Assembly (NCBI GenBank): GCA_029821755.1
Contig: JALGSV010000007.1
Coordinates: 124,001 to 188,000, forward strand
Direction: 5' to 3'
Length of the DNA: 64,000 nt
Source of the DNA: Candidatus Zipacnadum vermilionense
GTDB lineage: Bacteria > Armatimonadota > Zipacnadia > Zipacnadales > Zipacnadaceae
Shown: in pieces, positions 1 through 22,068 of the stretch
Layout of the letters: each line of letters begins with the position of its first letter
How positions within the stretch are numbered: the stretch's first letter is position 1
The notes under the pieces: generated by a model
What the model saw: the letters and a program-made list of their open reading frames with translations, nothing else
Told to the model about the DNA's origin: nothing
The model's database searches: none
Program-made: the position numbers and the translations under genes

Positions 1-317
1 TCGACCGCGACTTCGCTGGCCTGCTGCAGCAGTATCGCGAACTGATGTCGCTCCTGCTCGAGCATGACCTACCCAGCCGCGGCGCGGCCTCACCGCCCGC
101 CGCCGTGACCCGAGCCGCCGAGGAGGTTGCCTCGGCCCTGAATCTCCTTGAGGCTATGAATCATGAGCAACCCCCGGCCGGAATCACTGAACAAGCTGAA
201 CCTGGTTCAGCAGATGTACACACTGCCGCTCGACGCATGGCGGCCGCAACTGGATTCGCTTTCCCGGCTCCTGAGCCAGGGGAGCCCACCGTGGCGGGAG
301 CTGACGGCCGTCTATGA
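1..317 (+). CDS. 3' end of an upstream gene, possibly terminase small subunit (partial)
   Basis: The frame is open from base 3 to a TGA at 315-317; the other two forward frames stop within the first 65 bases. The visible N-terminal half (leucine-rich, ending near LNLLEAMNHEQ) looks like real helical protein. The last 50 or so residues overlap the terminase start in another frame and look like shadow sequence, so the overlap may be real or this frame may be extended by a lesion. Its position directly before the large terminase subunit suggests a small terminase subunit, but nothing in the sequence proves this. Confidence 0.4.
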   Translation, partial: DRDFAGLLQQYRELMSLLLEHDLPSRGAASPPAAVTRAAEEVASALNLLEAMNHEQPPAGITEQAEPGSADVHTAARRMAAATGFAFPAPEPGEPTVAGADGRL

Positions 318-1800
318 GCAGCCGCCGGCCCCGCCCGCCGAGTTCGTCACCAGTCCCCTGTATCTGGGGCTGGGCAACCGAGTCTACCCGATGGTCTTGC
401 GCACCCTGGAGGAGCTCTTCAACGGTCCCTACAACGAGGCCGCCATCTGCTGGGGCATCGGTAGCGGCAAATCCTTCTTCAGCTCGCTGGCCATCAGCTA
501 TCTACTTCACCGCACTTTGTGCCTGCGCGACCCCCAGGCCTACTACGGTCTGGCGCCCGGTAGCGCCATTGCCTTCCTGAATATGAGCGCCAGCGCGGGC
601 CAAGCCCAGCGCGTGGTGTTCAATGAAATCAAGCAACGCCTGATCGCCTCGCCGTGGTTTCGGCGCTTCTGCTCCCGCTACGGCAAGCACGGTCTGCAGG
701 TGCTCAGCGGCGAGATTCGCCTGCCCAAGCACCTCGTGGTCGTCACCGGCAACTCCGCCGAGACCTGCCCCCTGGGGTACAACCTGCTGGGGGCGGTCCT
801 GGACGAGGCTGCCTTCCTACTCACTACCGGCGACGGTCGTCGCGACGCCGCCGAGGAGATCTACCATGCTCTACGCCAGCGCATCACCAGCCGCTTCTTC
901 AACCGCGGCCTGCTGGTACTGATTTCGTCACCTCGCCATGTGGGCGACTTCATCGAGCGCAAGTTGGCCGAGGCTCCGGATAGCCCGCGCCTCTACACCA
1001 GTCGCCGCGCCCTGTGGGAGATGAAGCCGCCGCAGCTCTACTGCGGCCGCTTCTTCGAGTACGAGGGCCTGCAGGTCCCGGTCGAGTACCAGGACGACTT
1101 CCGCCGCAATCCGCAGCGAGCGCTGCGCGATCTCGCGGCCCGGCCCACCCAGGCCTACTGCGCCTGGTTAACCGACGAGCAGGCCCTGGAAGCCTGCTGC
1201 GACCTACCGGGCGAGAGCCCGCTGGACGAGGGCGGCCGCTGGCGCGGCGATCTGCGCGCGCCGGACAGCCTGCCCCGCTACCTGCACGTGGACCTGGGCC
1301 TGCGCCGCGACGGCTGCGGGATCGCCATGGTCCACTGCCGCCCGGCCCCGGAGCGTCCCGACGAGCCGGAGGTCTGGGCCGACCTGGTCGTCCGCCTCAC
1401 CGCCCCGGCGGGCGGGGAGATAGACTTCGCGCGGGTCCGCGAGTTGATCAACGACCTGCGCCGGCGTGGGTACAGCCTGGCCCAGGTCAGTTTCGACGGC
1501 TGGCAGTCGGTAGACAGCCGCCAGATTCTGCGCCGCCAGGGCTTCCGCACGGCGCTGGTCTCGGTAGACCGGGACCTGGGGCCCTACGAGACGCTCAAGG
1601 AACTGGTCAACACCGGCCGCCTGCACCTGCCGCGTTACGAGCCGCTGTTGCGGGAGCTCAAGCGCCTGGAGCTGGTAGACGGTCGCAAGGTGGACCACCC
1701 CCGCGGCGGCAGCAAGGATGCTGCCGACGCCCTGGCCGCCGCCACCAGCGAAGCGATCAAGCACTGGGGCGGGGGCAGGATCGGCAGCCGCATCATTTGA
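163..1800 (+). CDS. Phage terminase large subunit (ATPase/nuclease)
   Basis: This is the DNA-packaging motor of a tailed phage. It has a Walker A motif GIGSGKS at residues 98-104, a Walker B VLDEAAF at 212-218 and a coupling motif LLVLISSP at about 250-257. The C-terminal RNase H-like nuclease has acidic residues D377 (HVDLGL), D445 (SFDGW) and D519/D522 (KDAADAL). The 545-residue length is normal for the family. The ATG at 163 has GAGG about 9 nt upstream. The next gene encodes the portal, the usual partner. A hairpin repeat follows the stop codon. Confidence 0.93.
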   Translation: MSNPRPESLNKLNLVQQMYTLPLDAWRPQLDSLSRLLSQGSPPWRELTAVYEQPPAPPAEFVTSPLYLGLGNRVYPMVLRTLEELFNGPYNEAAICWGIGSGKSFFSSLAISYLLHRTLCLRDPQAYYGLAPGSAIAFLNMSASAGQAQRVVFNEIKQRLIASPWFRRFCSRYGKHGLQVLSGEIRLPKHLVVVTGNSAETCPLGYNLLGAVLDEAAFLLTTGDGRRDAAEEIYHALRQRITSRFFNRGLLVLISSPRHVGDFIERKLAEAPDSPRLYTSRRALWEMKPPQLYCGRFFEYEGLQVPVEYQDDFRRNPQRALRDLAARPTQAYCAWLTDEQALEACCDLPGESPLDEGGRWRGDLRAPDSLPRYLHVDLGLRRDGCGIAMVHCRPAPERPDEPEVWADLVVRLTAPAGGEIDFARVRELINDLRRRGYSLAQVSFDGWQSVDSRQILRRQGFRTALVSVDRDLGPYETLKELVNTGRLHLPRYEPLLRELKRLELVDGRKVDHPRGGSKDAADALAAATSEAIKHWGGGRIGSRII

Positions 1801-1807
1801 TTCCGGC

Positions 1808-1862
1808 GGCACCGGCGTCTCGCCGGTGCTTCGTGTGGGGGCGGGCCTGCTAGCCCGCCCAG
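1808..1862 (+). repeat. Two adjacent palindromic REP-like hairpins
   Basis: A hairpin with arms CACCGGCG/CGCCGGTG is followed by GTGG and a second hairpin with arms GGCGGGC/GCCCGCC. Both read in plus orientation, the minority orientation among the GTRG-type repeats of this window. They lie between terminase and portal. Confidence 0.7.
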
Positions 1863-1948
1863 TTGGTAACAACCAGGCGGCGAACACACCTCGGGGCGCC
1901 GGTCATCGGCGCCCCGGGCCGCCTATCCGAGATGGAGGAGAAAGCAGC

Positions 1949-3199
1949 ATGTCCGAGTTGATGCTCAAAGCGTATGTGGTAGGCGGAGATGAGGGGGCCG
2001 GGCGGAGCCGGCAGTTGCCGGAAAGCGCCTGGGTGGAGGCCTATGCTAGCGGGGAGGTGATCGAGCCGCCGTATGATCTGGACGCGCTGGCGCAGTTGTA
2101 TGAGACCAATGCCGCGCACAAGGCTTGCGTGGACGCCAAAGTCACCAACTGCGTGGGCCTGGGGTATCGGTTTGTGCCGATGACCGACAACCCGCAGGGA
2201 GCCAACCGGGCAAACCTGGCCCTGCTGGAGCACCTTTTCGGTAACTGCAGTCCGGAGCAGACCTTCACAGAGGCGCTCGCGGGAGTGTGGACCGATGTGG
2301 AGTGCCTGGGCAACGGGTACCTGGAGATCACCCGCAACTCGCGCGGCGAGATCGACGGCTTTTACCACGTGCCGGGGACGACCATGCGGGTGCGCGGCGG
2401 CGGGCAGGGGTTCCTGCAGATCCGGGAGACCGAGCGGCGCTCCTTCCGGCCCCTGGGCGGGCCCGAGGAGGCCGACCCGGTCACCGGGGAGCCGCAGAAC
2501 GAGATCATGCACCTGAAGAAGTACACGCCCCAGTCCTCCTACTACGGCATCCCGGACATCGTGGCGGCGATGGCGGCGGTGGTGGGCGATAAAGAGGCGC
2601 GGGAGTACAATATCGACTTTTTCGAGAACCACGCCGTCCCCCGCATGGCGATTATCGTGGAGGGCGGACAACTCTCCGATGAGGTGCTGGCGCAAATCCA
2701 GGAGTACATGGAGACGGAGATTCGCGGCCAGGGGCACAAGACGCTCATCCTGGATGTGCCGGGCAGCGACGTGCGCATCCGCCTGGAGCCGCTGACAGTG
2801 GGCGTGCAGCAGGACGCGGCCTTCCTGGACTACCGCAAGGCCAACCGGGACGAGGTGCTGATGGTACACCGGGTGCCGCCCAGCAAGATCACCATTGTCG
2901 AGCACGCGAACCTGTCCAACTCGAAGGACCAGGACAAGACCTTCCGCGAGCAGGTGATCCGCCCGGAGCAGCGGCGGATCGAGTACCGGATCAACCGCAT
3001 GGTCCGGGAGGAGATGGGCATAGGCGACTGGCGCTTCCGCTTCGAGGAGATGGACTTGGCCGAGGCCCGCGAGGAGGCGGAGATAGCGAAGATCTACTCA
3101 GAGATAGGGGCGTGGACGGTGGAGGAGATAAGAGGGAGGCAAGGGCTGAGTACGGCAGGCACAACGGCCGGCACAGGGACAGGCCCAACGGCAGGCTGA
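1949..3199 (+). CDS. Phage portal protein
   Basis: This is the dodecameric head-vertex channel. The order of conserved segments matches PBSX/HK97-type portals: an early AHKACVDAKVTNCVG helix, ECLGNGYLEI, a HLKKYTPQSSYYGIPD loop, FFENHAVPRMAI, and a late VHRVPPSKI with the NLSNSKDQDKTF segment. The frame is open further upstream, but the ATG at 1949 has GGAGGAGAAAG in front and the upstream part contains intergenic repeats. The C-terminus ends in a Thr/Ala/Gly-rich tail encoded by a degenerate tandem repeat (3156-3199) that also occurs outside genes, so the tail looks repeat-derived. Confidence 0.92.
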   Translation: MSELMLKAYVVGGDEGAGRSRQLPESAWVEAYASGEVIEPPYDLDALAQLYETNAAHKACVDAKVTNCVGLGYRFVPMTDNPQGANRANLALLEHLFGNCSPEQTFTEALAGVWTDVECLGNGYLEITRNSRGEIDGFYHVPGTTMRVRGGGQGFLQIRETERRSFRPLGGPEEADPVTGEPQNEIMHLKKYTPQSSYYGIPDIVAAMAAVVGDKEAREYNIDFFENHAVPRMAIIVEGGQLSDEVLAQIQEYMETEIRGQGHKTLILDVPGSDVRIRLEPLTVGVQQDAAFLDYRKANRDEVLMVHRVPPSKITIVEHANLSNSKDQDKTFREQVIRPEQRRIEYRINRMVREEMGIGDWRFRFEEMDLAEAREEAEIAKIYSEIGAWTVEEIRGRQGLSTAGTTAGTGTGPTAG

Positions 3200-3284: not shown

Positions 3285-4118
3285 ATGCGATTTGACGGGA
3301 TTGCGAGCTCTACTGCCGTGGATCGCGAGGGCGAACAGATGACGACGGGGGCGTTGGAGGGGATGGTGCAGGTCGGCCCCGTCGAGCTGCGCGCAGGGCA
3401 TCGGGGAGAGAAGATCGGAGTCGTGGAGGAGTGCCGGCGGGAAGGGGAGAGACTGAGAGTGAAGGGGAGGCTGGAAGAGAAGAGCCCCCGGGCGCGGGCG
3501 CTGTGGGAGAGGCTGCGGCGGGGGGTGCGGATGGCCCTGAGCGTGGGCGGGCGCAAGCGCGTGGTGCGGCGGTATAGCCCCGTCGCCGGGCGGTATGTGC
3601 GGATGATTGAAGACGCCTCGCTGGAGCATGTGGCGGTGTGTGGGGAGGAGGAAGCCAGGAATGGGGAGACGGAGGTAGTCGCGAGCGGGGAGAGGGGAAC
3701 CTCACCCCCCGGCCCCCTCTCCCGCGCCTGCGGCTGGGGAGAGGGGGAGTCGAAGGTCGAAAGTGGCGGAGGGGGAGTGTTAGTCGGCAGTCGAGAGTGT
3801 CAGGGGGGAGATACCTCACCCCCTGGCCCCCTCTCCCGCGCCTGCGGCTGGGGAGAGGGGGAGTTGGGAGGGGAGTCTCACCCCCTGCCCTCTCTCGCGA
3901 CACCGCCGCCCCGAGGAGAAGAGGGGGAAGTGAGAAGGGCGGTAAGGCAGGAGCTTGCGGAAGCGGAAGCCTGTGCTTCCCATCCCGCTCGTTCCTCCGG
4001 CCCGTCGGCGGAGCCGGGGCGGAGACGGTCGCTGCTGGTGGGGAAGACGGGACGGACAAAGGAGCAAGTCAAGAGCTTGCGCAACGACAACGATGAACTC
4101 TGGAAGGGAGTGCTGTGA
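3285..4118 (+). CDS. Prohead maturation protease (XkdF/HK97 type), interrupted in frame by repeats
   Basis: The first part matches phage capsid proteases: FDGIASSTAVDREGEQMTTG near the start, RLRVKGRLEEKSP, VRMALSVGG and DASLEHVAVC. It presumably cleaves the capsid or scaffold during head assembly. The ATG at 3285 follows GGGAGGAA at 3268-3275; the longer open frame starts in a hairpin. From about residue 135 the reading frame runs through two full and one divergent copy of the class A repeat ([16 protein letters not shown] twice), adding roughly 80 Gly/Pro-rich residues, then returns to a charged tail that may act as scaffold. The stop is one base before the capsid gene's GTG. Confidence 0.82.
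   Translation: MRFDGIASSTAVDREGEQMTTGALEGMVQVGPVELRAGHRGEKIGVVEECRREGERLRVKGRLEEKSPRARALWERLRRGVRMALSVGGRKRVVRRYSPVAGRYVRMIEDASLEHVAVCGEEEARNGETEVVASGERGTSPPGPLSRACGWGEGESKVESGGGGVLVGSRECQGGDTSPPGPLSRACGWGEGELGGESHPLPSLATPPPRGEEGEVRRAVRQELAEAEACASHPARSSGPSAEPGRRRSLLVGKTGRTKEQVKSLRNDNDELWKGVL
3700..3749 (+). repeat. Class A hairpin repeat, translated
   Basis: This is a full-length class A copy: CCTCACC head, outer stem CCCCCTCTCCC/GGGGAGAGGGGG and the CGCGCCTGCGGCTG loop. It is read in frame inside the prohead protease. Confidence 0.9.
3814..3863 (+). repeat. Class A hairpin repeat, translated
   Basis: This is a second copy with the same loop and reading frame as the one at 3700, inside the same gene. 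Confidence 0.9.
3876..3928 (+). repeat. Divergent class A repeat, translated
   Basis: It keeps the CTCACCCCCTGCCC head and GAGGGGGAAG end, but has a different loop (GACACCGCCGCCCCGAGG). It lies directly after the second copy in the protease gene. Confidence 0.6.
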
Positions 4119-4119
4119 A

Positions 4120-4845
4120 GTGGGTACCGAAGAACTGTTGGAGAAAGCCGTGGAGACGGGAGACTTGGAGGCGGGAGGGCTGCTGAATACCCAGCAAACC
4201 GATCGCTACATTTCGCTGGTGGTGGATCAGTCGGCGATGCTGCGCGAGGCGCGGGTGGTGCGGATGCGCGGGCCGGTCATGGAGCTGGATAAGATCGCGA
4301 CCACCGGGCGCGTCAGTCAGCTCAAGACCGAGGGCGTGGCGCCAGAGACCCTGGCCGCCCCCGCCTTCAGCAAGGTCAATCTGAGCAGTGTCGAGGTGGT
4401 TACGCCCTTTGAGATTACCTTCGAGGCGCTGGAGGACAGCATCGAGCAGGGGGACCTGGAGAATACCATCGTCGAGGCCATGAGCCGGCAGACGGCCACC
4501 GATCTCGAGGAGCTGGCGATCCTGGGCGATACCGACTCGTTGGACACGTTCCTGAAGGGCCAGGACGGGTGGCGCAAGCTGGCCGACGGCGGGCAGATCG
4601 TGGACCTGGAGGGCGCGACCCTGGATAAGGCCGCCCTGGGCCTGATGTACAAGGCCCTGCCGGATAAGTACAAGCGCAACCACGGGGACCTGCGCTTCTA
4701 CTTGCGGCGGGGGATGCGGCATTATCGGCGGGGATCGCGCCGCCGTATATGGGCGTGCCGGCGGTACCGGTGCCGCTCATTCCGACGAATCTGGACGCCG
4801 TGGCGCCCTTCGCGGGCGAGGGGGACTACTCCTTCGGGTTCCTGA
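4120..4845 (+). CDS. Phage major capsid protein, 5' part before a frameshift
   Basis: The sequence TDRYISLVVDQSAMLREARVV, the SVEVVTPFEITFEALEDSIE region and LEELAILGD fit an HK97-fold major capsid protein. The GTG at 4120 has GGAAGGGAG 9 nt upstream and lies just after the protease stop; an ATG at 4093 would overlap the protease. Homology-like sequence in this frame ends at about 4705 (GDLRFYL). Beyond that it becomes Arg-rich shadow, while the true C-terminus continues in another frame (4749-5003). Adding one G to the G5 run at 4709-4713 would join both parts into a protein of about 294 residues, a normal capsid length. Confidence 0.85.
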   Translation: MGTEELLEKAVETGDLEAGGLLNTQQTDRYISLVVDQSAMLREARVVRMRGPVMELDKIATTGRVSQLKTEGVAPETLAAPAFSKVNLSSVEVVTPFEITFEALEDSIEQGDLENTIVEAMSRQTATDLEELAILGDTDSLDTFLKGQDGWRKLADGGQIVDLEGATLDKAALGLMYKALPDKYKRNHGDLRFYLRRGMRHYRRGSRRRIWACRRYRCRSFRRIWTPWRPSRARGTTPSGS

Positions 4846-5003
4846 CCTCACGGGAGAACCTGATCTTCGGCATCCAGCGGCGGGTGCGGATCGACCGGGA
4901 CCGGGACGTGCTGCGGGGCGTGAACGTGTACGTGATCTCCACGCGGATCTCGGTGGCGTTTGAGGACCCGGAGGCAGTGGTGATGGGAGTGAATGTCGGG
5001 TAG
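4749..5003 (+). CDS. Phage major capsid protein, 3' part after a frameshift
   Basis: The frame reads AGDAALSAGIAPPYMGVP from about 4707 and continues through VPLIPTNLDAVAPFAGEGDY, FLTSRENLIFGI and the terminal strand ISVAFEDPEAVVMGVNV. This is the usual C-terminal domain of the capsid fold. The ATG at 4749 is only the first start codon in the open frame; there is no ribosome site, so this is not thought to be a separate gene. It is either a sequencing/assembly error in the G run, a real inactivating deletion, or a -1 frameshift product. Confidence 0.75.
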   Translation: MGVPAVPVPLIPTNLDAVAPFAGEGDYSFGFLTSRENLIFGIQRRVRIDRDRDVLRGVNVYVISTRISVAFEDPEAVVMGVNVG

Positions 5004-5013
5004 GGGAGGAGAA

Positions 5014-5376
5014 CCTCACCCCCTGGCCCCCTCTCCCGCGCCTGCGGCTTGGGAGAGGGGGAAAGATGCCGCCGTGGCGAGCGGGGCCAGCCTGCTTCGT
5101 TCGAGCTGCACAGGACAGGACTTGAGGGGGCGGAGGCGGGGAGAGGGACGCAAAGGTTAGCGAACGGGCGGCTGGCGGGTGTGATCGCAGACGGCTGCGC
5201 GCGGAAGCCGCCCCCACGAGAGCGCGGGCTGGAAAGCCCGCGCCACGCGGAGCGACGGGCGAGGACGCCCGTCGTACCCGGAGGAGACATCGCCCCGAGG
5301 AGCGGTGCCGCCGGAAGCGAGGGGCGAGAACGCCCGTTGTACCTAGGGAGGCGGCGGGGGACATAGCCCCCGCCCT
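5014..5376 (+). repeat. Intergenic repeat cluster (class A plus four GTRG-type hairpins)
   Basis: This spacer of about 390 nt has no gene. It holds a class A copy (5014-5062, starting 10 nt after the capsid stop), a GCGGGC-stem REP ending CCACGCGGA (5219-5253), a GACGGGCG/CGCCCGTC hairpin ending GTAC (5258-5282), a related AGGGGCG/CGCCC hairpin (5315-5340) and a GGCGGGGG/CCCCCGCC hairpin ending CTAT (5350-5381). Confidence 0.8.
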
Positions 5377-5397
5377 ATAGCAGAGGGGATAGGTGCC

Positions 5398-8300
5398 ATG
5401 CATAAGCAATACCTGTGGGTAGATCGGCGAGGGGCGGAGTTGCGGTGGGGGGCGCTGGGGAACGCGAACATTGGGGCGAGCGGGAAGGGGAGCCTGGTGT
5501 ATTGGGTGCGCAAGCCCTTTGGTAATAACCGCTGGTACGACGACTTCATGTGGGGGATCGTGTGCGACGACAGCAACATGGTCCGGAGCCGGTACGGGCG
5601 GGGGATCGGGGTGCGGCGTGATGGGGTGTGGTCCGCGGGGGGGCAGACCGACATCAACTGGGCCAACTCGGGCGCCTGGGAGCTGCACATGATGCAGTGG
5701 GACTTCACCCAGGGCAAGCTGTGGAGCTACTACAACGACGGCGTGGCCTCGGCCCCGGAGCGTACGGGCGTGGCCGCACCGAACGGGACGGCGCAGTATA
5801 TCCAGATCGGCTACCCGTACTCCAGTCCGACCGTGTACAAGGACAGCGACCTACGGTGGCATGGATTGGCAATCTGGGACGATCTGCTGACCGTGCCACA
5901 GATGCAGGCGATCTACGCGCGGGGGTACCAGGACGAACTGCAGGCGGGGGACGGGACGGGGAACCTGATCTTCTTGCTGCGGATGAATGAGGGGCTAACG
6001 GCGGAGGTGGCGGGGGGGAGCCCGCTCTGCACGCCGGGGGCGACCTCGGGACCGCGCTGGTGCCTGATGGAGGAGGGGACGCGGAACCTGGGGACAGCGG
6101 TATACCCGCTGGGGACGCCGCGGCACGATGGCAGTGAGGATGACCGCAAGCCGCTGGCGGCAGTATGCCGGGTGTCACTGGACATCGCGCAGCAGCAGGC
6201 GGCGGTGAGCGACCTCAACGAGAGCACCTACAGCCGACTGCAGGTGCAGGGCTACACCTACAGCCACGTGGCCGGGGCCTTCTTCCCGGAGCCGCCCTCG
6301 CCGGGGACGTACCGGCAGCTCATCCACGTGCCGGATGAGGGGAACACGGCGGGGTACGAGATGGGGATCGGGCCGCTGGCGTACAAGCACTATCCCTCGA
6401 CCAGCACGGGGGTGTTCGACCAGTACGGGAGCGGGCGGAACTTCTCCGTGGTGGCGGACGCGGGGAACTCGCAGACGGCCTTCAAGACGAATCTGACCAC
6501 GCCGTTCGCGGCGAGCTACTGGATCGGGGCGTGGGTGCACCTGTACAGCGGCAATTGCCGGGGGTACCGGGGGAAGGTGGTGGACTTCAACGGGACGACC
6601 AAGGTGATCACGCTGGACACGACGCTGCCGGAGATCCCGGCGGCGGAGTCGGTGGGGTTCATCAACTTCTGCCCGCGAGTCATCGGGCAGAACGCGAGCG
6701 GGGGGATGCTGTACGACTACACGGTGGAGGCGAACCTGTGGTCGCGGCATGACAGCTCGAAGCACTTCACGATGCTGGAGTGGCAGGCGAGCCCCAACGC
6801 GGGGTTCCTGCGCTACGACCGGGGGCGGACGGCGGTCATCCCGGGATCGGCGTACAACGGAGGCGGACGGAATGTGATGTACGGGAAGGGGTATGGCTAT
6901 ACGGACAGCCCCTCGACGAATCTGGAGATCTGGTTGCGCAAGATCGAGCTGGCGGGACCGCAGAAGTACCAGTTGATCGGGCGGCAGGCGCAGAGGCAGG
7001 GAGCAACGCTGGCGGACAACTTCCTGGTGCGGACGAGGGATTCGCATGCGGTAGGCGGGGACTCGGTGAAACTGTGGCGCAAGACGGGGACGAGCCTGGT
7101 GCGGGAGCGGCCGGTGAAGCAGACGGACTACCAAGCGGTGTGGGCGGACCTGACGGCGACGGGGACGTGGCGGGCGACGGTGGACTGCCCGCCGATGCCG
7201 CTGGCGTATGACGAGGCGACGCAGGTGGTGACCTGCGCGATCACCGGGAAGGATGCGGCGGGAGTGCGGCGGCTGGGATACATTCAGGGGCATTGGGATG
7301 AGCAGACGGGGCGGATTGGCTGGACGGAGGAGCCGGCGCCGGTGGGGAAGGCCAATCCGGTCATCGACATGAGCACGCTGCGGACGGACCGGGAGTCGGA
7401 TGCGCCGTATCAGGAGCCGCAGTCACTGTGCAATGTGCTGCAGGCGCCGGACGGGACGTGGAGCCTGTTGTACAACGCGCGGCCGGATGCGGTAGACGGG
7501 GCGCAAATCTGGTGCCTGCATGGGGCGGAGGACCGCTGGTCGTTTGACTTCGCCGAGCAGTTCGCCGGGCCGCTGGTCCCGATGTTCGGGGGGGTGGATA
7601 CGCGGGAGCCGTTGAACGGGAACGGGTTCGTGCCGTGGGTGAACATGCACGCCTACTGGACGGTGTGGGAGAACCCGTACGCTACCTCGCCGCAGCGACG
7701 GTACCAGGCGTACGTGGGGGGCAAGACGATCTTCAACTCGGGGACCGGGTACTCAGTGGACATGCGGCCGGTGATAGGCTGTCAGGGGGCAGATCTGCGC
7801 AGCCTGCGGCCGCTGCCGCACGGCAACGCGCTGACGCCGCTGCCGGGCGCGAACATGCACATGTTCACCGGCACGATGCTGGGCCAGGAGGACGCGATCG
7901 GGCTGCTGTTCTCGGACGGGGTGACGTCGGGCGTGGGGCTGATGACCTCAGAGGACGGCGTGCACTTCCAGTCGCTGTATGTGCAGTCGGGAGTAGGCGA
8001 GCCGCTGCTGCCGTATTCGGAGTTGCCGGGGGAGTCGTTCTGCCTCAAGCCGGGGCCGGCCTTCCGGCTGGGGGACCTGCGGGTCTACTACTACGGCTGG
8101 GATGAGTACGCGTCCCTGAACTTCGCGACCGTCCGCTGGAATGGGGAGACCTCGTACCAGATGGACGCGGAGCAGACCGAGACGTGGCTGGAGACGGCGA
8201 TCCTGGAGCGGCCGGAAAGCGGCTGGGGGGAGCTGTACGTGAACGCGGCGCCGGAGCAGGGGACGGTCCAGGTGGAGCTGCGAGATCCGGTGACGGAGAC

Positions 8301-8802
8301 GGCGGTGACCGGCTGGGCGCGGGGGGACTGCAGCGCGATCGGAGACAGCGTGCGGGGGCAAGTGACCTGGGGTGGGGCGGGACTGGGTGAGCAGACGGCG
8401 CAGTACCTGCGGCTGCGATTCTACCTGAGCCGGGCCTCCGCCACTGACACGACGCCGAAGCTGTACGCCTGGGAGACGGCGCCGCTCGTAATCTTGGCGC
8501 CGCAGGTGACGAGCCTGCAGGTGGAAGGGCAGGTAGCGCCGGCGGGAGTGGGCGACACGCAGCCAACGCTGAGCTGGAGCTACAGCGATCCGCAGAGCCT
8601 GGTGCAGACGGCCTGGCAGGTGCAGGTGGCCGCCACGCGGGAGGCGCTGGAGACAGGCCAAGCGGAGATGTGGGATACGGGTGTGCGGATAGGCGCGGAG
8701 ACGAGCGTGGTGTACGCGGGCGAGGCGCTGGGAGACTACGAGACGTACTTCTGGCGGGTGAGGGTGAGGAATGAGAAGGGCGTGTGGTCGGAGGAGTGGT
8801 AG
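5398..8802 (+). CDS. Large virion protein with LamG-like and Ig-like domains
   Basis: The product has 1134 residues. The N-terminal 250 or so (SLVYWVRKPF, GAWELHMMQWDFTQGKLWSYYNDG, LRWHGLAIWDDLLTVPQMQAIYARG) have the pattern of a concanavalin A/LamG jelly roll. The middle is rich in Trp, Tyr and Gly and may be a beta-propeller or tail-spike-like region (SEDGVHFQSLYVQSG). The last 100 residues (PTLSWSYSDP, WQVQVAATREALETG, TYFWRVRVRNEKGVWSEEW) resemble a fibronectin III/Ig domain. It probably binds host-surface glycans. Its place between capsid and connector genes is unusual for a fibre. The ATG at 5398 follows AGAGGGGATAGGTGCC. Exact function is unknown. Confidence 0.75.
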   Translation: MHKQYLWVDRRGAELRWGALGNANIGASGKGSLVYWVRKPFGNNRWYDDFMWGIVCDDSNMVRSRYGRGIGVRRDGVWSAGGQTDINWANSGAWELHMMQWDFTQGKLWSYYNDGVASAPERTGVAAPNGTAQYIQIGYPYSSPTVYKDSDLRWHGLAIWDDLLTVPQMQAIYARGYQDELQAGDGTGNLIFLLRMNEGLTAEVAGGSPLCTPGATSGPRWCLMEEGTRNLGTAVYPLGTPRHDGSEDDRKPLAAVCRVSLDIAQQQAAVSDLNESTYSRLQVQGYTYSHVAGAFFPEPPSPGTYRQLIHVPDEGNTAGYEMGIGPLAYKHYPSTSTGVFDQYGSGRNFSVVADAGNSQTAFKTNLTTPFAASYWIGAWVHLYSGNCRGYRGKVVDFNGTTKVITLDTTLPEIPAAESVGFINFCPRVIGQNASGGMLYDYTVEANLWSRHDSSKHFTMLEWQASPNAGFLRYDRGRTAVIPGSAYNGGGRNVMYGKGYGYTDSPSTNLEIWLRKIELAGPQKYQLIGRQAQRQGATLADNFLVRTRDSHAVGGDSVKLWRKTGTSLVRERPVKQTDYQAVWADLTATGTWRATVDCPPMPLAYDEATQVVTCAITGKDAAGVRRLGYIQGHWDEQTGRIGWTEEPAPVGKANPVIDMSTLRTDRESDAPYQEPQSLCNVLQAPDGTWSLLYNARPDAVDGAQIWCLHGAEDRWSFDFAEQFAGPLVPMFGGVDTREPLNGNGFVPWVNMHAYWTVWENPYATSPQRRYQAYVGGKTIFNSGTGYSVDMRPVIGCQGADLRSLRPLPHGNALTPLPGANMHMFTGTMLGQEDAIGLLFSDGVTSGVGLMTSEDGVHFQSLYVQSGVGEPLLPYSELPGESFCLKPGPAFRLGDLRVYYYGWDEYASLNFATVRWNGETSYQMDAEQTETWLETAILERPESGWGELYVNAAPEQGTVQVELRDPVTETAVTGWARGDCSAIGDSVRGQVTWGGAGLGEQTAQYLRLRFYLSRASATDTTPKLYAWETAPLVILAPQVTSLQVEGQVAPAGVGDTQPTLSWSYSDPQSLVQTAWQVQVAATREALETGQAEMWDTGVRIGAETSVVYAGEALGDYETYFWRVRVRNEKGVWSEEW

Positions 8803-8835
8803 GGAACGGCGGGACGGCGGCGGGGGAGAGGGGAA

Positions 8836-9035
8836 CCTCACCCCCCGGCCCCCTCTCCCGCGCCTGCGGCTTGGGAGAGGGGGAGGAGAGGGGATCGGCG
8901 GGGACACCGGTCTGGAGAACGGTGCCACTAGGGTCGGTGTGTTGGCCGTGAGCTAGGGCGGGCGGGAGGCCCGCGCCACGCGGAGGGGAGGCAGGACCTC
9001 GCCACCCCGCACCGGCGAGACGTCGGTGCCACCGG
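8836..9035 (+). repeat. Intergenic repeat cluster
   Basis: It contains a class A copy (8836-8885), an ACACCGGTC/AACGGTGCCAC hairpin (8908-8932), a degenerate GCGGGAGGCCCGC REP ending CCACGCGGA (about 8956-8983) and a CACCGGCGAGACGTCGGTG hairpin ending CCAC (9009-9033). The last one runs directly into the GGAAGGAG ribosome site of the next gene. Confidence 0.75.
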
Positions 9036-9052
9036 AAGGAGTATGGTTGGAT

Positions 9053-9724: not shown

Positions 9725-9745
9725 AGGCGGGAGGCGAGAAGCGCC

Positions 9746-12358: not shown

Positions 12359-12433
12359 AGGCGAGTCGCAAGACGCAAGCAGGGGAGCCTGGAGGGCCGG
12401 GCTCTTCTGCTTGGTGGGGGGAGTTGTCAAGGC

Positions 12434-13104: not shown

Positions 13105-13112
13105 AGGGGACT

Positions 13113-15947: not shown

Positions 15948-15952
15948 GGGCG

Positions 15953-16008
15953 CCTCACCCCCCTGCCCCCTCTCTGGGCGCAGACGCCCTGGGCAGGAGA
16001 GGGGGGAG
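15953..16008 (+). repeat. Class A repeat with alternative loop
   Basis: It starts 5 nt after the stop of the 944-residue protein. The apical part is TGGGCGCAGACGCCCTGGG rather than the common loop. It separates two ORFs that are in the same frame. Confidence 0.85.
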
Positions 16009-16040
16009 GAGAGAGATCGTGGTTCGGGAGGAATCTGACA

Positions 16041-16340
16041 ATGGCTAGTGCGCTGCAGTATCCGATGGCCTTTCACCATAACGGGATCCTGTACCTGATC
16101 GGCTATTACGGGGGGCGGCAGTTGATCCGGCGGAGTGGGGATGGGGGGAAGACCTGGCTGAAGTACCAAGGGGACAGCATCCAGAGCGACATCGCCGAGT
16201 CGGACCCGGAGCGGGTGGCCCTAGTGAAGATGGAGACGCAAGGGGCGCGGCTGGTGGTGGGAGTGCCGCAGACGCCGCACGTGGTGATCTATGTGAGTCG
16301 GGACGATGGCTGGACGTGGGAGAGGGAAGGGGAGGTCTGA
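16041..16340 (+). CDS. Small Asp-box (BNR) protein, probably split from the upstream gene
   Basis: The 99-residue product has two Asp boxes, SGDGGKTW and SRDDGWTW, and strand patterns of a beta-propeller (GILYLIGYYGGRQLIRR; VVIYVSRDDGWTWERE). It is too short for a full propeller. The preceding 944-residue protein ends in an Asp box in the same frame and only one TGA plus a class A repeat lies between them. GGGAGGAA is present upstream of the ATG, so it may be translated separately and complement the larger part. Confidence 0.65.
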   Translation: MASALQYPMAFHHNGILYLIGYYGGRQLIRRSGDGGKTWLKYQGDSIQSDIAESDPERVALVKMETQGARLVVGVPQTPHVVIYVSRDDGWTWEREGEV

Positions 16341-16552
16341 ACGGCAGGCACGACAACAGGCACAGAGGCAGGCACAGAGGCAGGGGGACCGGCGAGGAGT
16401 CTGGGGCACCGGAGGAAGCAGACCCCTGACCGCCCCGCGACGGGCGAGGACGCCCGTCGTACCGGAGAGGGTGCGGGCGGAGGTTGCGCGCGGGGAAGCG
16501 CTTACACTCCGGCCCGACGGGACGGCGGGGGACGTAGCCCCCGCCCTACAGG
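16340..16552 (+). repeat. Intergenic repeat cluster
   Basis: It contains GGCAGGCAC-like tandem words (16340-16384), a GACGGGCGAGGACGCCCGTC hairpin ending GTACCGG (16437-16462) and a GGCGGGGGACGTAGCCCCCGCC hairpin ending CTAC (16520-16548). The last one adjoins the GGGAGAGAGG site of the next gene. Confidence 0.75.
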
Positions 16553-16561
16553 GAGAGAGGT

Positions 16562-18871
16562 ATGGCTAAGAGATCGTATCCAATTGCGCGGGTGAAACTG
16601 CAGGCGCCGGGGGCGCGGTGGGGGGTGAAGTATGACGGATTTGGCCAGCAGGACCTGTCGGCGGAACTGATGCGGGAGGGGCGGGTGAGCGTCAGCCCGG
16701 TGGACTTTGGGGCGCTGGGACTGCCGGCGCCGGGGAAGGCCGGGGTGCAGGTGCCCGCGGCGATGGTGCTGGAGCGCAGCGGGCTGAACTGCGTGGTGGC
16801 GCGGCCGTTCTTGGATACCGCCCAGCAGATCGGCCTGGGGCACTTTACCACCTATGGCGGGGACTGGGTGAGTCTGCCCAAGCATGGTTTCAACGGGGAG
16901 ATGAACCTGTTCCAGTGCCGTGGCGTGGGGAATGAGGTGATCGGGGCGGTCAGCAACTTCACGCTGCCGCTGGACCCGGTCATGGCCATGTCGCTGTACC
17001 GGACCCATCCGCCGGATGACTTCAACTGGGACCAGGTGTCGCCGTATACGGAGATTCACTTTGGCGTCACGGCGAGCGAGGAGTGGGTGCTGTGCCTGCC
17101 GTATGGCGCGCCGCTGTACCTGATGCGGCGGGTGGGCGGGCAGTGGTGGAAGGTGCCGGACACCGAGCGGTCGGTGCATGTGCCCAGCCTGAGCGGATAC
17201 GGCAGCGGGCAGCGCTTGCTCCTGTGGGTGGCGGTGTGGCGAGGGCGGCTGGTGCTGTCGACGGACGGATTCGCGGAGGACGTGTGGGTGTACCGGGCGC
17301 CGGAGGGGCCGATCCGGGTCAAGTCGGGGAAGTGGTCCATCTGGCACAACGCGGGGCAGTACATGTTCTCGTTCCTGCCGATCAAGATGCCGACGGCGCG
17401 GCTGGACAGCGCGGCGGTGGAGACAGGCTACGATACGCGGCTGAGCGTGGGGCAGGTGTTTGTCACCGACCGGCAGCAGCCGGTGCTGAGCGACGGCGGG
17501 ACGGTGTTGGCGGAGGCGGGAGTGGTGGATACGACGGCGGTGCGCGGGGACCTGTCGGCGACGCAGCGGGCCTGGCGGGCGGAGATCGCGCCGTATGTCT
17601 GGAGCCAGACCGAGGTGGGGACCGATCCGGAGACGGAGGAGCCGGTGGACTTTGAGACGTGCGTGTCACCGCAACTGTATGCGGTCAACATGGGGCAGTA
17701 CGCGGAGGTGGAGGAGCGGGAGACACCGACGGAGGAGGACATCTCGGCGGAGGTGCGGCGGGTGGAGGGCAGCCACGCGGACAAGCTGCCGACGGTGCGG
17801 TATGCCCTGGCGCTGGACAACCAACTGGGGCAGCGGCGGGAGCTGCGGGAGTACCAGCGGGTGGCGGTGGAGTTGGGCTGGCGGCTGGACGATGAGAGCG
17901 AGGTATACACGGCGACGGCGGAGGGGTACACGGTGGAGCCGCCGCCGGAGGTGCTGGGCGGGGGGGAGGCGGAGCTGGAAGTGGCGCTGCTCGACGGGCT
18001 GCTGCGGCTGCGGGATGAGAAGGCCGACGGGCGCGTGCCGGTGTTTGACGGCTGGGCGGTGGTGGAGGTCTTCCGCTGGGCGCTGGATCGGTGCGGGATT
18101 CCGCGGGCGAAGCAGAACCTGGAGGACACGGGCGTGCGGTTGTCGCTGGGGGAGCCGGAGTCGCCCCTGTGGCTGCCGGAGCCGGGGCGGGGCTGGCTGG
18201 AGTTCCTGCAGGAGGTAGCGCGGTTTGACTACGGGGCGGGGTTGTTCGTGGATGCCGAGGGGCGCTTCACCAAGGCCTGCGCGCACTGCCGGGAGCTGCG
18301 GACGGCGGCGGACGTGGCCCGGCATGACGGGAGCCTGACGGGGGCGTGCCCGGCCGAGGTGGACTGGCAACTGTACACCCGGGCGAGCGAGGCGCCGGAA
18401 CCGGAGGAGCCTGGAGAGGTGCTGGCGATGGCGCGGCCACGGCTGAGCCTGAGCGAGCGGGAGTATGTGAACTACGTGGCGGTGTGCGGCGTGGGGCGAG
18501 ACGGGCGGCCGATCCGGTCAGTGGTGTGGGACCCGGCCTCGCTGTATGACCCGACCTCGGATCGCTTCGTAGGCTGGCGGAAGATGGAGGTCGCGGCGCT
18601 GCGCGGGTACACCACACAGGCCGAGGCCAACCGTCTGGCGCAGGATATCTACACGGCGCGGAGCGGGCGACCGGAGTACCTGAGCCTGCTGACGCCACTG
18701 GAGCCGGGGATGCGGATTGGGCAGGTGTTGGAGGTGCGGGGGGCGGAGCAGATCGGGGCGGGCGGGCAGGCGTACCGCATCGTGGCGCTGGAGCATCGGG
18801 TGGAGAGGAGCCCGGAGAGGGTGGCGGTGACGCGGGTGAAGGGGAAGTGGGTGGGGAGCCTCACCCCCTGA
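16562..18871 (+). CDS. Phage tail hub/baseplate-like protein
   Basis: The product has 769 residues. The last 250 (YVNYVAVCGVGRDGRPIRSV, ASLYDPTSDRFVGWRKMEV, a helix with TTQAEANRLAQDIY, then TPLEPGMRIGQVLEVRGAE) match the strand-helix-strand layout of tail hub proteins such as gp27/XkdQ-type late control proteins. The middle (DGWAVVEVFRWALDRCGIP, WLEFLQEVARFDYGAGLFVD) is also typical of these proteins. The N-terminal 300 residues look like an added beta-rich domain. The stop TGA lies inside a class A repeat, so the last residues (GSLTP) are repeat-encoded. Confidence 0.65.
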   Translation: MAKRSYPIARVKLQAPGARWGVKYDGFGQQDLSAELMREGRVSVSPVDFGALGLPAPGKAGVQVPAAMVLERSGLNCVVARPFLDTAQQIGLGHFTTYGGDWVSLPKHGFNGEMNLFQCRGVGNEVIGAVSNFTLPLDPVMAMSLYRTHPPDDFNWDQVSPYTEIHFGVTASEEWVLCLPYGAPLYLMRRVGGQWWKVPDTERSVHVPSLSGYGSGQRLLLWVAVWRGRLVLSTDGFAEDVWVYRAPEGPIRVKSGKWSIWHNAGQYMFSFLPIKMPTARLDSAAVETGYDTRLSVGQVFVTDRQQPVLSDGGTVLAEAGVVDTTAVRGDLSATQRAWRAEIAPYVWSQTEVGTDPETEEPVDFETCVSPQLYAVNMGQYAEVEERETPTEEDISAEVRRVEGSHADKLPTVRYALALDNQLGQRRELREYQRVAVELGWRLDDESEVYTATAEGYTVEPPPEVLGGGEAELEVALLDGLLRLRDEKADGRVPVFDGWAVVEVFRWALDRCGIPRAKQNLEDTGVRLSLGEPESPLWLPEPGRGWLEFLQEVARFDYGAGLFVDAEGRFTKACAHCRELRTAADVARHDGSLTGACPAEVDWQLYTRASEAPEPEEPGEVLAMARPRLSLSEREYVNYVAVCGVGRDGRPIRSVVWDPASLYDPTSDRFVGWRKMEVAALRGYTTQAEANRLAQDIYTARSGRPEYLSLLTPLEPGMRIGQVLEVRGAEQIGAGGQAYRIVALEHRVERSPERVAVTRVKGKWVGSLTP

Positions 18872-18954
18872 TCCCCCATCCTTGCAGGAGAGGGGGAATC
18901 AGAACCTCACCCCCCGGCCCCCTCTCCCGCGCCTGCGGCTGGGGAGAGGGGGAG
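18859..18954 (+). repeat. Tandem class A repeats, one supplying a stop codon
   Basis: The first copy (18859-18897) has the short ATCCTTGCAGG loop and contains the TGA of the tail hub gene. The second copy (18905-18954) has the common CGCGCCTGCGGCTG loop. Confidence 0.9.
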
Positions 18955-18980
18955 TGGAGAGGGCCAAGGGAGACGACTTC

Positions 18981-19202
18981 ATGGAGAACCTGATTGCGGC
19001 GGTGAGGGAAGAGATTGACCGGCGGGTAAGGCCGGGGCAAAGCGGGGCGACGACGGTGGCGGAGAGGGTGGCGGGGGCGGAGGTCATCGGGGCTAGCAAG
19101 ACGACGGTAGCGGCGGTGTATGAGGCGGGGACGGGAGAGGTGCGACGGTACGGGTGGTATGGGAGAGGGAGGTATGGGGACGAGAGGTATATGGCGGTCT
19201 GA
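18981..19202 (+). CDS. Small phage protein, unknown
   Basis: The 73-residue product begins MENLIAAVREEIDRRVRPGQ and ends in a Tyr/Arg/Gly-rich tail (RRYGWYGRGRYGDERYM). The ATG at 18981 has AAGGGAGACG upstream; the longer frame begins in a class A repeat. It lies between tail hub and tail fibre-like genes. It could be a small tail accessory protein. I do not recognise it. Confidence 0.5.
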   Translation: MENLIAAVREEIDRRVRPGQSGATTVAERVAGAEVIGASKTTVAAVYEAGTGEVRRYGWYGRGRYGDERYMAV

Positions 19203-19227
19203 GCGGCAGTTGGAACGGCAGGGAGAA

Positions 19228-19391
19228 CGGGACACCGCTCGGGAGAGCGGTGCCACTGGGGGACGGCTGGTTCTGGTTCATTGAGGTGAACAAGGCCCGC
19301 GCTACCGCGCGGGCCTTGTTCACTTTTAGATGGCGGGCTGGAAGCCCGCCCCACGTAGAGGAGCCACAGGCTTGGAAGCCTGGGCTACCCA
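19228..19391 (+). repeat. REP-like hairpins around a terminator
   Basis: It contains a CACCGCTCGGGAGAGCGGTG hairpin ending CCAC (19230-19256), a GGCGGGCTGGAAGCCCGCC REP ending CCACGTAGA (19332-19362) and an AGGCTTGGAAGCCT hairpin ending CTACCCAG (19368-19391). Confidence 0.75.
19286..19327 (+). terminator. Strong intrinsic terminator inside the tail region
   Basis: A perfect 16-bp stem starts GTGAACAAGGCC and closes GGCCTTGTTCAC around a CTACCG loop, and is followed by TTTT. It lies between the 73-residue ORF and the fibre-like gene, so the lysis/fibre genes may need their own promoter or antitermination. Confidence 0.8.
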
Positions 19392-19407
19392 GAGACGGAG
19401 GCGAGAG

Positions 19408-20100
19408 ATGCCGACGCAGAGTGACAACTACGGATTGTGGGTCGGGATGGTTACGGACGATTTCATCGAGCCGGCGCATGTGGATCGAGCGGCGCAGATA
19501 GTGGATCGGGTGCTGGGAGGCGTGGTCGGGAAGCTGCTGGCGGCGGGGGTGTATGAGGGATGGCTCCTCGGACAGGACAAGCAGGTGGGCGCTGGGTGGG
19601 GTGTGCTGGAAGCAGCGATCGGGGAGACCGAGGCGGGGCAGGAGATCGGCGGGCTGACTAACGAGGCCGTCAACTACGTCTTCGCCGTGGCTACCGAGGA
19701 GACTGCGCCAGGGGGTGTGGTGGGCTTTGCCGCTCAGACCGGATCGGTGGGGCCGGCGGGGGCGCTGTACCTGGGGACCATTGAGCTGGATGCCGCCGGG
19801 GCGGTCGTGGCTCTGGACAACGACGCAACGGGTGTGGATCGAGGGGTGTTCCCGCTGGTGACGCGGACGCTGCAGGGGAGCGGAACGGTGGCGGAGGTGG
19901 ACCCGGATGAGACGGTGGCTATCGAGGTGACTCACGCGGCGCTGGCGGTGCCGGGGGCGATCGCGGTAACGGTGAGCGAGGGATTCTCGTATGTGGTCGA
20001 GGAGGCGTGGCGAGGAGACGGGCTCCTGGTGAAGGCGACCAACGAGGGGACGGAGACGGCGGAGTTGGTGTATGCGTGGGAAAGGAAGGGGATGGGGTAG
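19408..20100 (+). CDS. Putative tail fibre/receptor-binding accessory protein
   Basis: The product has 230 residues. The N-terminus (MPTQSDNYGLWVGMVTDDFI) and the repeated strand motifs (NEAVNYVFAVATEETAPGG, ALYLGTIELDAAGAVVALDN, SYVVEEAWRGDGLLVKATNE) suggest a beta-rich virion surface protein. The ATG at 19408 has GGAGGCGAGAG upstream. It sits just before the lysis genes, where fibres are often encoded. Function is inferred from position only. Confidence 0.55.
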   Translation: MPTQSDNYGLWVGMVTDDFIEPAHVDRAAQIVDRVLGGVVGKLLAAGVYEGWLLGQDKQVGAGWGVLEAAIGETEAGQEIGGLTNEAVNYVFAVATEETAPGGVVGFAAQTGSVGPAGALYLGTIELDAAGAVVALDNDATGVDRGVFPLVTRTLQGSGTVAEVDPDETVAIEVTHAALAVPGAIAVTVSEGFSYVVEEAWRGDGLLVKATNEGTETAELVYAWERKGMG

Positions 20101-20104
20101 GGAG

Positions 20105-20143
20105 CCTCACCCCCTGCCCCCTCTCCTTGCAGGAGAGGGGGAG
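20105..20143 (+). repeat. Class A repeat, short-loop form
   Basis: It starts 4 nt after the preceding stop and has the TCCTTGCAGGA apical part. Confidence 0.9.
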
Positions 20144-20185
20144 AGGAGAGGGCAGCGGGGATGATTGCCGTACCGGGGAGGAAGC

Positions 20186-20512
20186 ATGGACTGGCAGGTA
20201 ATGCTCAACTGGCTGCAGGGGCCCGAGGGGGCGACGGTGCGGTATGGGCTGGCGGGGGCGCTGGGGGCGGTGGTCAACTGCGCGCTGGAGGAGCGGGCGG
20301 TAGTGCTGCCGCGGCTGCGCGGGAACCGGCTGGAGCTGGGGTTCCTGGGGAATCTGGCCACTTGCTCCGTGACCGCGCAGATCGCCGACCACTCTTTCAC
20401 CACCGCCTTCCTGGCAGCGCTGGCGGGGACGATGATCCTGCGAACGCTCAAGCGGCGCATCGAGCGGGCCTTCGAGGAGGAGTTGGAGCGGCTCAAGCGA
20501 GGTGAAGGGTGA
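20186..20512 (+). CDS. Small holin-like membrane protein
   Basis: The 108-residue product has two hydrophobic segments (YGLAGALGAVVNCAL and TTAFLAALAGTMIL) and ends in a charged helix (RIERAFEEELERLKRGEG). This topology fits phage holins or lysis accessory proteins. GGGGAGGA lies just before the ATG at 20186. The stop TGA shares its A with the ATG of the next gene, so the two are translationally coupled. Confidence 0.6.
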   Translation: MDWQVMLNWLQGPEGATVRYGLAGALGAVVNCALEERAVVLPRLRGNRLELGFLGNLATCSVTAQIADHSFTTAFLAALAGTMILRTLKRRIERAFEEELERLKRGEG

Positions 20513-20853
20513 TGGAGTTGCTCACGGGAATGGCGGTAGCAGTGAATGGGGTGGTGCTGGTGGCGGCCGGGCTGGGCGGGCTGGACCTGGCGCGGCGAGG
20601 GGGCTTTCGGCCGGCGGAGATCGGGATGGCGCTGGTGGCGCTGGGGCAGTTGGCCGGCGCGGCGGAGACGCCCGGCTGGGGGTGGCTGATTCGCACCGGG
20701 GCGGCCCTGATCGTGATCTACACGATGTGGCAGACCGGGCGGCTGGTGGTGGGAGCGCGGGAGGCGGGCGCGGTTAGGGAAGAGGCGGGGGTAGTGGAGC
20801 TGGCGAGGGTGAGAGCGGTGGCGAGTTGGCCCGGTAGACGACAGGCACGATGA
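20512..20853 (+). CDS. Small membrane protein coupled to the preceding holin-like gene
   Basis: The 113-residue product has three hydrophobic segments (MAVAVNGVVLVAAGLGG, MALVALGQLAGAAE, AALIVIYTMW) and a basic C-terminus. The start overlaps the previous stop by one base. It may be a second holin or antiholin component. The family was not recognised. Confidence 0.5.
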   Translation: MELLTGMAVAVNGVVLVAAGLGGLDLARRGGFRPAEIGMALVALGQLAGAAETPGWGWLIRTGAALIVIYTMWQTGRLVVGAREAGAVREEAGVVELARVRAVASWPGRRQAR

Positions 20854-20935
20854 CAGGCACAACGATAGTCGGAGCGGGGGTAGCCCGCCCCACCTCCGCA
20901 TGGCGACTAAGAAAGACACAGAGAGGTGAAGACAG

Positions 20936-21223
20936 ATGCAGAAGATTCAGTGGATCCTGGAGGCGATAGTGCTGCCGGGGACGAGCACGCTGCTGGTGGG
21001 GTACCTGTGCGCGCTGGCGGCGAAGTACATCCAGCGGCTCAAGGACCAGCGGCTGCGGGAGTTGCTCCTGGCCCTGGTCAAGGCGGCGGAGCAGATCTAT
21101 GGCGCGGGGACCGGGGACCTGAAGCGGGACTACGTCCTGCAACAGGCGCGGGCGCAGGGACTGGCCGGCGTCAGCAGCGCGAAGCTGGAGGCGGCGGTGT
21201 ATGAGATGAGAAACGGCGGGTGA
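20936..21223 (+). CDS. Phage holin, LL-H family-like
   Basis: It encodes 95 residues: one N-terminal membrane segment (LEAIVLPGTSTLLVGYLCALAA), then an amphipathic helix (KYIQRLKDQRLRELLLALVK) and the AAEQIYGAGTGDLKRDYVLQ segment characteristic of LL-H-type holins, followed by a helix ending LEAAVYEM. It would permeabilise the inner membrane for the amidase encoded 180 nt downstream. GAGAGGTGAAGAC precedes the ATG. Confidence 0.75.
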   Translation: MQKIQWILEAIVLPGTSTLLVGYLCALAAKYIQRLKDQRLRELLLALVKAAEQIYGAGTGDLKRDYVLQQARAQGLAGVSSAKLEAAVYEMRNGG

Positions 21224-21224
21224 A

Positions 21225-21375
21225 CCTCACCCCCTGCGCACGCGGACGTGCGCTTCCCCCTCTCCCGCGCCTGCGGCTGGGGAGAGGGGGAGCGAGGACA
21301 ACGCCACCGCGGGGCGTCGGCGAGAGGAGTCATGCCTCACCCCCCCCTGCGTTCTCCCCCTGCAGGGAGAGGGAG
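21225..21375 (+). repeat. Two class A repeats, one with a double apical module
   Basis: The first (21225-21291) starts one base after the holin stop and carries an extra GCGCACGCGGACGTGCGC hairpin before the common loop. The second (21335-21375) has a short CCCTGCAGGG loop and ends 25 nt before the amidase start. Confidence 0.85.
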
Positions 21376-21399
21376 TAGAAAGGTAGAACAAGAAACATC

Positions 21400-22068
21400 A
21401 TGCCAAGCGAGAGACAAGTCAGTTTTGCGGAGTTTGAGCAGCACCTGAACAACCTGCGGATGCCGCGGATGATCGACGAGGTGATCGTCCATCATACCGA
21501 GGAGCCGAGGGCGGCGCAGTACCGGGGGCTGTCCACCATTCAAGGCGTCCGGCGGTACCACATGCAGGTGCGGGGGTGGTCGGATAACGGCTACCATATC
21601 ATGATCGCGCCGAACGCGGATATCTGGCTGTGCCGACCGCTGGAACGGGCGGGGGGGCACTGCCTGGGGCATAACGCGCACTCGGTGGGGCTGTCGTATA
21701 TTGCCAACTTCGATGCGGAAGACCCGCGTAGCTACGGGGGGATGGTCACCGGGCAGCGCGTTGTCCAGGCGGTGCTGAAGCGGTTCGGGCTGGGCGTCAA
21801 GGCGGTACATTTCCATCGGGAATTCGCCGACAAAACCTGCCCCGGCATGAAGTTGGACTTGACGACCTACCGAAAGGAAGTGGAGCAAATGAGCCAGGAG
21901 CTACAAATTGTGGTGGAACCGGCGAGGAAGATGATCCCTTGCCATGCGCGGCTGGAGAGCGACACGACGCGGGTGGACCTGCGGGCGCTGGCGGAGGGGC
22001 TGGGGTATGAGGTGGTGGACCGGATTCGGGAGGAGGGGAAAGTGGTGGTGAGGGAGGGAGGCGCGTAG
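21400..22068 (+). CDS. N-acetylmuramoyl-L-alanine amidase (endolysin) with stalk domain
   Basis: The product has 222 residues. The Amidase_2 domain has zinc ligands H31/H32 (VIVHHTEE), H137/H139 (AVHFHREF) and C147 (KTCPG), with the HNAHSVGLSYIANF strand. It cleaves the amide between MurNAc and the stem peptide. The C-terminal part (KMIPCHARLESDTTRVDLRA, LAEGLGYEVVDRI, GKVVVR) resembles a copper-amine-oxidase/stalk wall-binding domain, a type also found in the host-like gene at 45608. There is no signal peptide, as expected for a holin-dependent endolysin. The ribosome site is weak (AGGTAGAA). Confidence 0.88.
   Translation: MPSERQVSFAEFEQHLNNLRMPRMIDEVIVHHTEEPRAAQYRGLSTIQGVRRYHMQVRGWSDNGYHIMIAPNADIWLCRPLERAGGHCLGHNAHSVGLSYIANFDAEDPRSYGGMVTGQRVVQAVLKRFGLGVKAVHFHREFADKTCPGMKLDLTTYRKEVEQMSQELQIVVEPARKMIPCHARLESDTTRVDLRALAEGLGYEVVDRIREEGKVVVREGGA

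Follow-up and report, generated by a model that had tools for sequence, protein, structure and literature searches.

A phage-derived head-tail gene cluster inherited with the chromosome in Zipacnadia, probably GTA-like and apparently eroding in one genus

The gene cluster that opens the window (the whole 64,000-nucleotide stretch analyzed here, G000:C71:124001-188000, on a contig of 280 kb) is in our judgment fairly probably a vertically inherited, phage-derived head-tail module, a viriform resembling the gene transfer agents (GTAs). We also lean, if only slightly, toward the wider claim that the Zipacnadia carry a new, independently domesticated GTA family, which has co-diversified with the whole order and which one genus is now losing. 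To our knowledge, no GTA is known in the phylum Armatimonadota, and the limited set of literature that we searched held no report of one for Zipacnadia or WS1. The host of the window is a Candidatus Zipacnadia (WS1) metagenome-assembled genome (MAG; G000, 4.39 Mb in 115 contigs, 95% complete) of that phylum, the class having been named recently (PMC10290634). Our evidence throughout consists of genes read from metagenome bins, the hosts being uncultured.

The cluster runs from the large terminase subunit (TerL) to the endolysin (163-22068), with every gene on the + strand and in the order TerL, portal, head maturation protease, major capsid protein (MCP), LamG-Ig protein, head-tail adaptor, two small connectors, tail tube, a chaperone/tape-measure remnant, two large tail proteins (the hub/tail protein among them), small proteins, holin, and amidase (Table 1). 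An earlier note on this DNA had recognized packaging, head, tail, and lysis genes here, and profile matches confirm them, all on one strand. Matches to PF04860, PF05065 (the latter by the MCP of a relative), PF18906, and the PHROGs of TerL and the adaptor mark the particle proteins as derived from caudoviricetes. When the contig is followed leftward, the genes upstream are those of the host (ilvD, a TPP enzyme, and GAPDH). Downstream, gene 22175 was not found beside the cluster in any relative, so the conserved cluster ends at the amidase.

Table 1. Features of the cluster, in window positions
Feature	Positions	Strand	Evidence and remarks
Upstream ORF, 3' part (small-terminase candidate)	1..317	+	ORF starts ~300 nt left of the window
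Terminase large subunit (TerL)	163..1800	+	phrog_2, E 2e-17; 45-61% identity to syntenic copies
Portal protein	1949..3199	+	PF04860, E 5e-43; phrog_12; 57-72% identity across the order
Head maturation protease/scaffold	3285..4118	+	phrog_80, E 1.5e-4; aligned with relatives
Major capsid protein (MCP, HK97 family), broken	4093..5003	+	phrog_1623 matches both halves
1134-aa LamG + Ig (Rha78A-like) protein	5398..8802	+	PF13385 and PF25788 in the family
Head-tail adaptor	9053..9724	+	phrog_442, E 2e-14
Conserved cluster protein	9840..10379	+	Syntenic, 31-43% identity; weak phrog_1082 match
Conserved cluster protein	10582..11253	+	Syntenic, 40-49% identity
Tail tube protein	11456..12358	+	PF18906, E 1e-10; phrog_290 in 6/9 members
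Tail-chaperone/tape-measure stretch, remnant	12434..12964	+	LREGRDF motif kept; in-frame repeat inside
944-aa conserved tail or tip protein (g13113)	13113..15947	+	Syntenic, 40-51% identity
BNR-like small protein (g16041)	16041..16340	+	Weak PF13088/PF14870 matches; syntenic
769-aa hub/tail protein with lectin-like domain	16562..18871	+	Relatives match tail and baseplate hub PHROGs
Small conserved cluster protein	18981..19202	+	Syntenic
Conserved cluster protein, no function assigned	19408..20100	+	Syntenic, 43-46% identity
Small conserved protein, possibly membrane	20186..20512	+	Syntenic; weak DUF4257 match
Small protein	20512..20853	+	Homologues in G003 and G009 only
Holin (LLH superfamily)	20936..21223	+	phrog_6918, E 9e-7; PF09682 below cut-off
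N-acetylmuramoyl-L-alanine amidase (endolysin), last conserved gene	21400..22068	+	PF01510, E 2e-12
Nine class A palindromes	3713..21290	+	Starts 3713, 3827, 5027, 8849, 10403, 11273, 18918, 20117, 21256

Several of the less familiar genes can be given candidate roles. The ORF that overlaps the start of terL is a candidate for the small terminase subunit (TerS); it is seen in family f1 only, where the G000 copy is 32% identical to that of G008 and the copies of G003, G008, and G009 are 41-56% identical to one another, and a search of PHROGs returned no match for it. The LamG-Ig protein, which always lies between MCP and adaptor and whose family carries PF13385 in 7 of 10 members and PF25788 in all 10, is probably a head fibre or adhesin. 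The first of the two connectors is probably a head or tail completion protein, and the second, judging from its position, probably a tail completion protein. The 944-aa tail or tip protein matches no family. A low-confidence model of the hub/tail protein (pLDDT 55) matches CBM66, which supports a lectin-like domain only, and an AlphaFold model of the tail tube (pLDDT 40) was set aside. The presence of carbohydrate-binding proteins on head and tip (LamG, CBM66-like) suggests binding to cell-surface sugars.

The cluster shows none of the equipment of an active temperate prophage: between 163 and 22068 there is no integrase, repressor, or replication gene, as the earlier note had remarked, and a PF00589 search found no integrase on the whole 280-kb contig. 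No tRNA occurs in the window or the adjoining 80 kb examined, and the longest word common to both 3-kb flanks (13 nt, against a random-pair mean of 12.8) reveals no att-like repeat beyond chance; att sites and a tRNA target for integration were thus sought and dismissed. With host genes on either side, the element is a fully endogenized part of the chromosome. Of nine genomes checked, eight have no integrase in the vicinity of the cluster; in the ninth, G003, a tyrosine recombinase sits ~4 kb upstream of terL (L049:6808-7320).

Orthologues of the cluster are spread across the order. The portal is present in 23 of its 41 genomes, in one copy each and at 52-75% identity, and searches with MCP and hub add four more genomes of the order (G001, G004, G005, and G035) and one from the class (G186), which brings the total to 27 in the order and one elsewhere in the class, with the cluster single copy and syntenic; outside these, MCP matches in the 251 phylum genomes searched are all distant. 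Families f1, f3, f5, and f6 have the same gene order apart from g16041, which lies elsewhere in G021. Of 20 splits, a tree of ten concatenated genes has 15 in common with the rpoB tree, where shuffling gives a mean of 0.2 and at most 3, and single-gene trees have 4-14; rpoB is the one host marker used, and its tree differs in part from that of the cluster. Host flanks tell the same story in some lineages. Among three genera of f5, more than 20 kb upstream is common to G038 and G040 and about 14 kb to G023 as well; the G040 contig carries a binning caveat, and the flanks of G038 and G023 agree without it. Downstream, ~20 kb is common to two species of genus g2, a small gene block adjoining the cluster is common to f5 and f6, and no other genus shares the flanks of the copy in the window. 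In g2, the sister genus, dN/dS lies between 0.01 and 0.28 (lowest 0.013), with MCP, TerL, and portal lowest, and selection is purifying throughout. The synteny and vertical inheritance that the earlier note proposed to check are borne out, by congruence with one host marker and by shared flanks in f5 and g2, and its proposal of a long-resident element kept under selection stands at the level of the clade, but not for the window's copy as an intact or well-kept one.

Portal and MCP searches found no orthologue in families f2 and f4, so the cluster either has been lost there or arose later than the order itself. A portal in G025 of f2 (L045, G025:C389) is unrelated-looking, at 29% identity, and probably belongs to an ordinary prophage. 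G035:C38 (L164) and G040:C113 (L057/L121) are 99.66% identical over 11 kb although binned in different genera; this reflects either a misbinned contig or a very recent transfer, and we treat it as the former, which is likely.

Could temperate or defective phages of one successful family have infected the order and integrated repeatedly? All parts of the cluster are of phage type, two families lack it, and a recombinase lies near one copy, all of which such a history would accommodate. We nevertheless regard it as very unlikely given the congruence with rpoB, the host flanks common across genera, the single copy per genome, and the absence of lysogeny genes and of nested phages. That G000 merely holds an ordinary prophage remnant, decaying since a single infection, is scarcely credible: the copy here is indeed damaged and full of repeats, but open and constrained orthologues in the same gene order across the order contradict it. 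A recent prophage was likewise rejected on the shared flanks, the rpoB congruence, and the missing integrase.

Comparison with free phages agrees with descent within the clade. The nearest ones (Streptomyces phages such as Mildred21; IMG/VR L102, L103, L105, and L106) have the same portal family, at 39-47% identity, and a related MCP, at about 30%, but in the portal and MCP trees they fall outside one Zipacnadia clade (with moderate support of 0.81 and 0.70), and no phage sequence is nested inside it. For most of the tail genes, no homologue could be detected in the phage loci that were tested; beyond portal and MCP, the phage loci examined hold relatives only of the tail tube, adaptor, g10582, and amidase, in L179 and L180. 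A further set of IMG/VR records (L089, L091-L094, L098, and L099) is 98.8-100% identical to Zipacnadia chromosomal contigs and probably represents chromosomal pieces misfiled as viruses. Elsewhere in Armatimonadota, G042:C24 (L167) and G069:C739 hold a distant set of portal, MCP, and adaptor, in which the MCP match falls into two parts about 220 nt apart, within an open frame; either a prophage or a domesticated relative of the cluster could account for this set.

The copy in the window is damaged, and the view that its genes are nearly all intact does not hold. Nucleotide alignment with intact relatives places a 52-nt internal deletion and a frameshift in MCP near 4713, and no second MCP copy was found in the G000 genome. 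The stretch between the tail tube and g13113 is 758 nt long where relatives have 1.5-2.4 kb, a shortening of about 1 kb; missing from it are a 153-aa chaperone-like gene, present in every other copy whose contig reaches far enough, and a 115-aa gene, present in most such copies. In the congener G002, ~500 nt of repeats stand between portal and LamG in place of protease and MCP. Between G000 and G002, dN/dS ranges from 0.25 (portal) to 0.63 (LamG), with rpoB at 0.155, whereas the values in g2 (G003-G011) are 0.089, 0.159, and 0.082, respectively; the window's genus thus stands at ~2-4 times its sister genus, and as these are Nei-Gojobori estimates at high divergence, only the contrast between genera is meaningful. 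The locus seems to be eroding in this genus, with capsid genes broken or lost, tail genes deleted, and palindromes inserted in spacers and genes. With its structural genes not all open, the window's copy has probably lost its function, barring an error of assembly. Such an error, under which the G000 copy would be intact and both its frameshifted capsid gene and its shortened tail-chaperone region would be artefacts of a repeat-rich MAG, seems to us a possibility, though an unlikely one: the two MCP halves are still recognizable and well conserved on either side of the break, GC-rich repeats promote misassembly, and the sequence was judged from the assembly, but an independent bin of the same genus (G002) has neither protease nor MCP, several genes of the genus show elevated dN/dS, and two separate conserved genes are missing.

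The pattern of loss also bears on whether the element was domesticated for something other than DNA transfer, such as a killing device of the tailocin type or some other delivery shell, the head genes being secondary. It is the head genes that the window's genus is losing (MCP broken here; protease and MCP gone in G002) while the long tail genes remain open, and carbohydrate-binding tip and head proteins are prominent. However, a tailocin would consist of tail genes without TerL, portal, and capsid; all three are present in relatives and, across the other genera, retained and among the most constrained genes, which makes a tailocin less likely for the clade. The tail chaperone gene has also been lost here, which points to decay rather than to a working headless tail. 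We consider such a device improbable. Of the two systems that the earlier note offered in place of a recent prophage, a GTA-like one fits and a tailocin fits less well.

Repeats were a central part of that note's argument, and here our reading departs from it. Pattern searches with the strict definition count 92 class A palindromes in the genome, of which 14 fall in the window and 9 (64% of those 14) in the cluster; a uniform null would place 0.46 in a stretch of 21.9 kb (P about 1e-9). The genome holds 19 copies of a 20-nt core, 7 of them within the cluster, and all 13 CTCACCCCC arms in the cluster share one orientation. The cluster is 11.8% non-coding, with spacers of 75-394 nt, so the repeat-filled spacers described earlier are real, except that two of the nine class A copies (3713 and 3827) lie not in spacers but within the protease ORF, whose C-terminal half contains in-frame repeat copies. 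The clusters of G003, G009, G038, G019, G023, and G024 have 0-1 CTCACCCCC arm and no hairpin, while those of G021 and G026, like G000, have some arms. The LamG-adaptor junction, 250 nt here, is an overlap of ~4 nt or a gap of at most 6 nt in each of the nine measured relatives, as it is in the congener G002, and wide spacers are partly a feature of the window's lineage, not of the element. Since the best-preserved copies are nearly free of them, the repeats are later insertions and uninformative on domestication, for which the note had invoked them. The class A repeats are lineage-specific host insertions that accompany erosion in this genus; a role as a working part of the element was rejected, as well-preserved copies do without them.

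Similar insertions occur in frame elsewhere: a repeat lies within the portal gene of G002 (L066), and TerL and portal of G026 (L067) contain in-frame insertions. Rickettsia palindromic elements are palindromic repeats found both in spacers and in frame inside genes. The palindromic host repeats in frame in a phage-type gene at 3713-3870 of the window resemble them in occupying both kinds of site, an analogy of position.

Taken together, we envisage that an ancient phage left its structural and packaging genes in Zipacnadia, where they were domesticated and have since been inherited along with the chromosome. Species with intact copies would make siphovirus-like particles, in which TerL may pack host DNA into an HK97-type head; the tail, with carbohydrate-binding proteins on head and tip, would attach to other cells and allow transfer, and holin and amidase would lyse the cell to free the particles. 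In the window's genus, the locus would be eroding as host palindromes enter spacers and, in frame, genes. A GTA is defined as caudoviricete-derived, fully endogenized, and mostly vertically inherited, packaging mostly random host DNA in a head too small for its own genome and delivering it to other cells (PMC9662315). The clade-level facts agree with those parts of the definition that sequence can address; host-DNA packaging, limited head capacity, and delivery are predicted.

Few lineages supply the known GTAs, and sequence methods for finding distant ones are lacking (PMC11841831). If our reading is true, it adds an independent domestication in a phylum without a described case and provides test species. 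The cluster also shows that loci of this kind are filed as viruses, several IMG/VR records being pieces of Zipacnadia chromosomes. Kept and decaying copies within one clade would further allow a comparison of how such elements are gained, maintained, and lost, and of the selection that maintains them.

Among known systems, Bartogtaviriformidae, Brachygtaviriformidae, Dd1, and VTA represent independent domestications of tailed phages (PMC9662315; PMC11841831). They belong to other hosts and have been shown experimentally. The RcGTA-like GTAs of Alphaproteobacteria (Rhodogtaviriformidae) have co-diversified vertically with their hosts (PMC9662315) and are likewise chromosomal sets of genes for packaging, head, tail, and lysis that lack genes for replication or integration. 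Among solved structures, the portal profile matches only the RcGTA portal Rcc01684 (6tba/6te8, E 1.4e-4), and the MCP, tail tube, and hub profiles gave no sequence match to solved chains. The Zipacnadia cluster, known here from genes alone, differs from RcGTA in belonging to another phylum and in the large LamG-Ig gene that separates its MCP from its adaptor.
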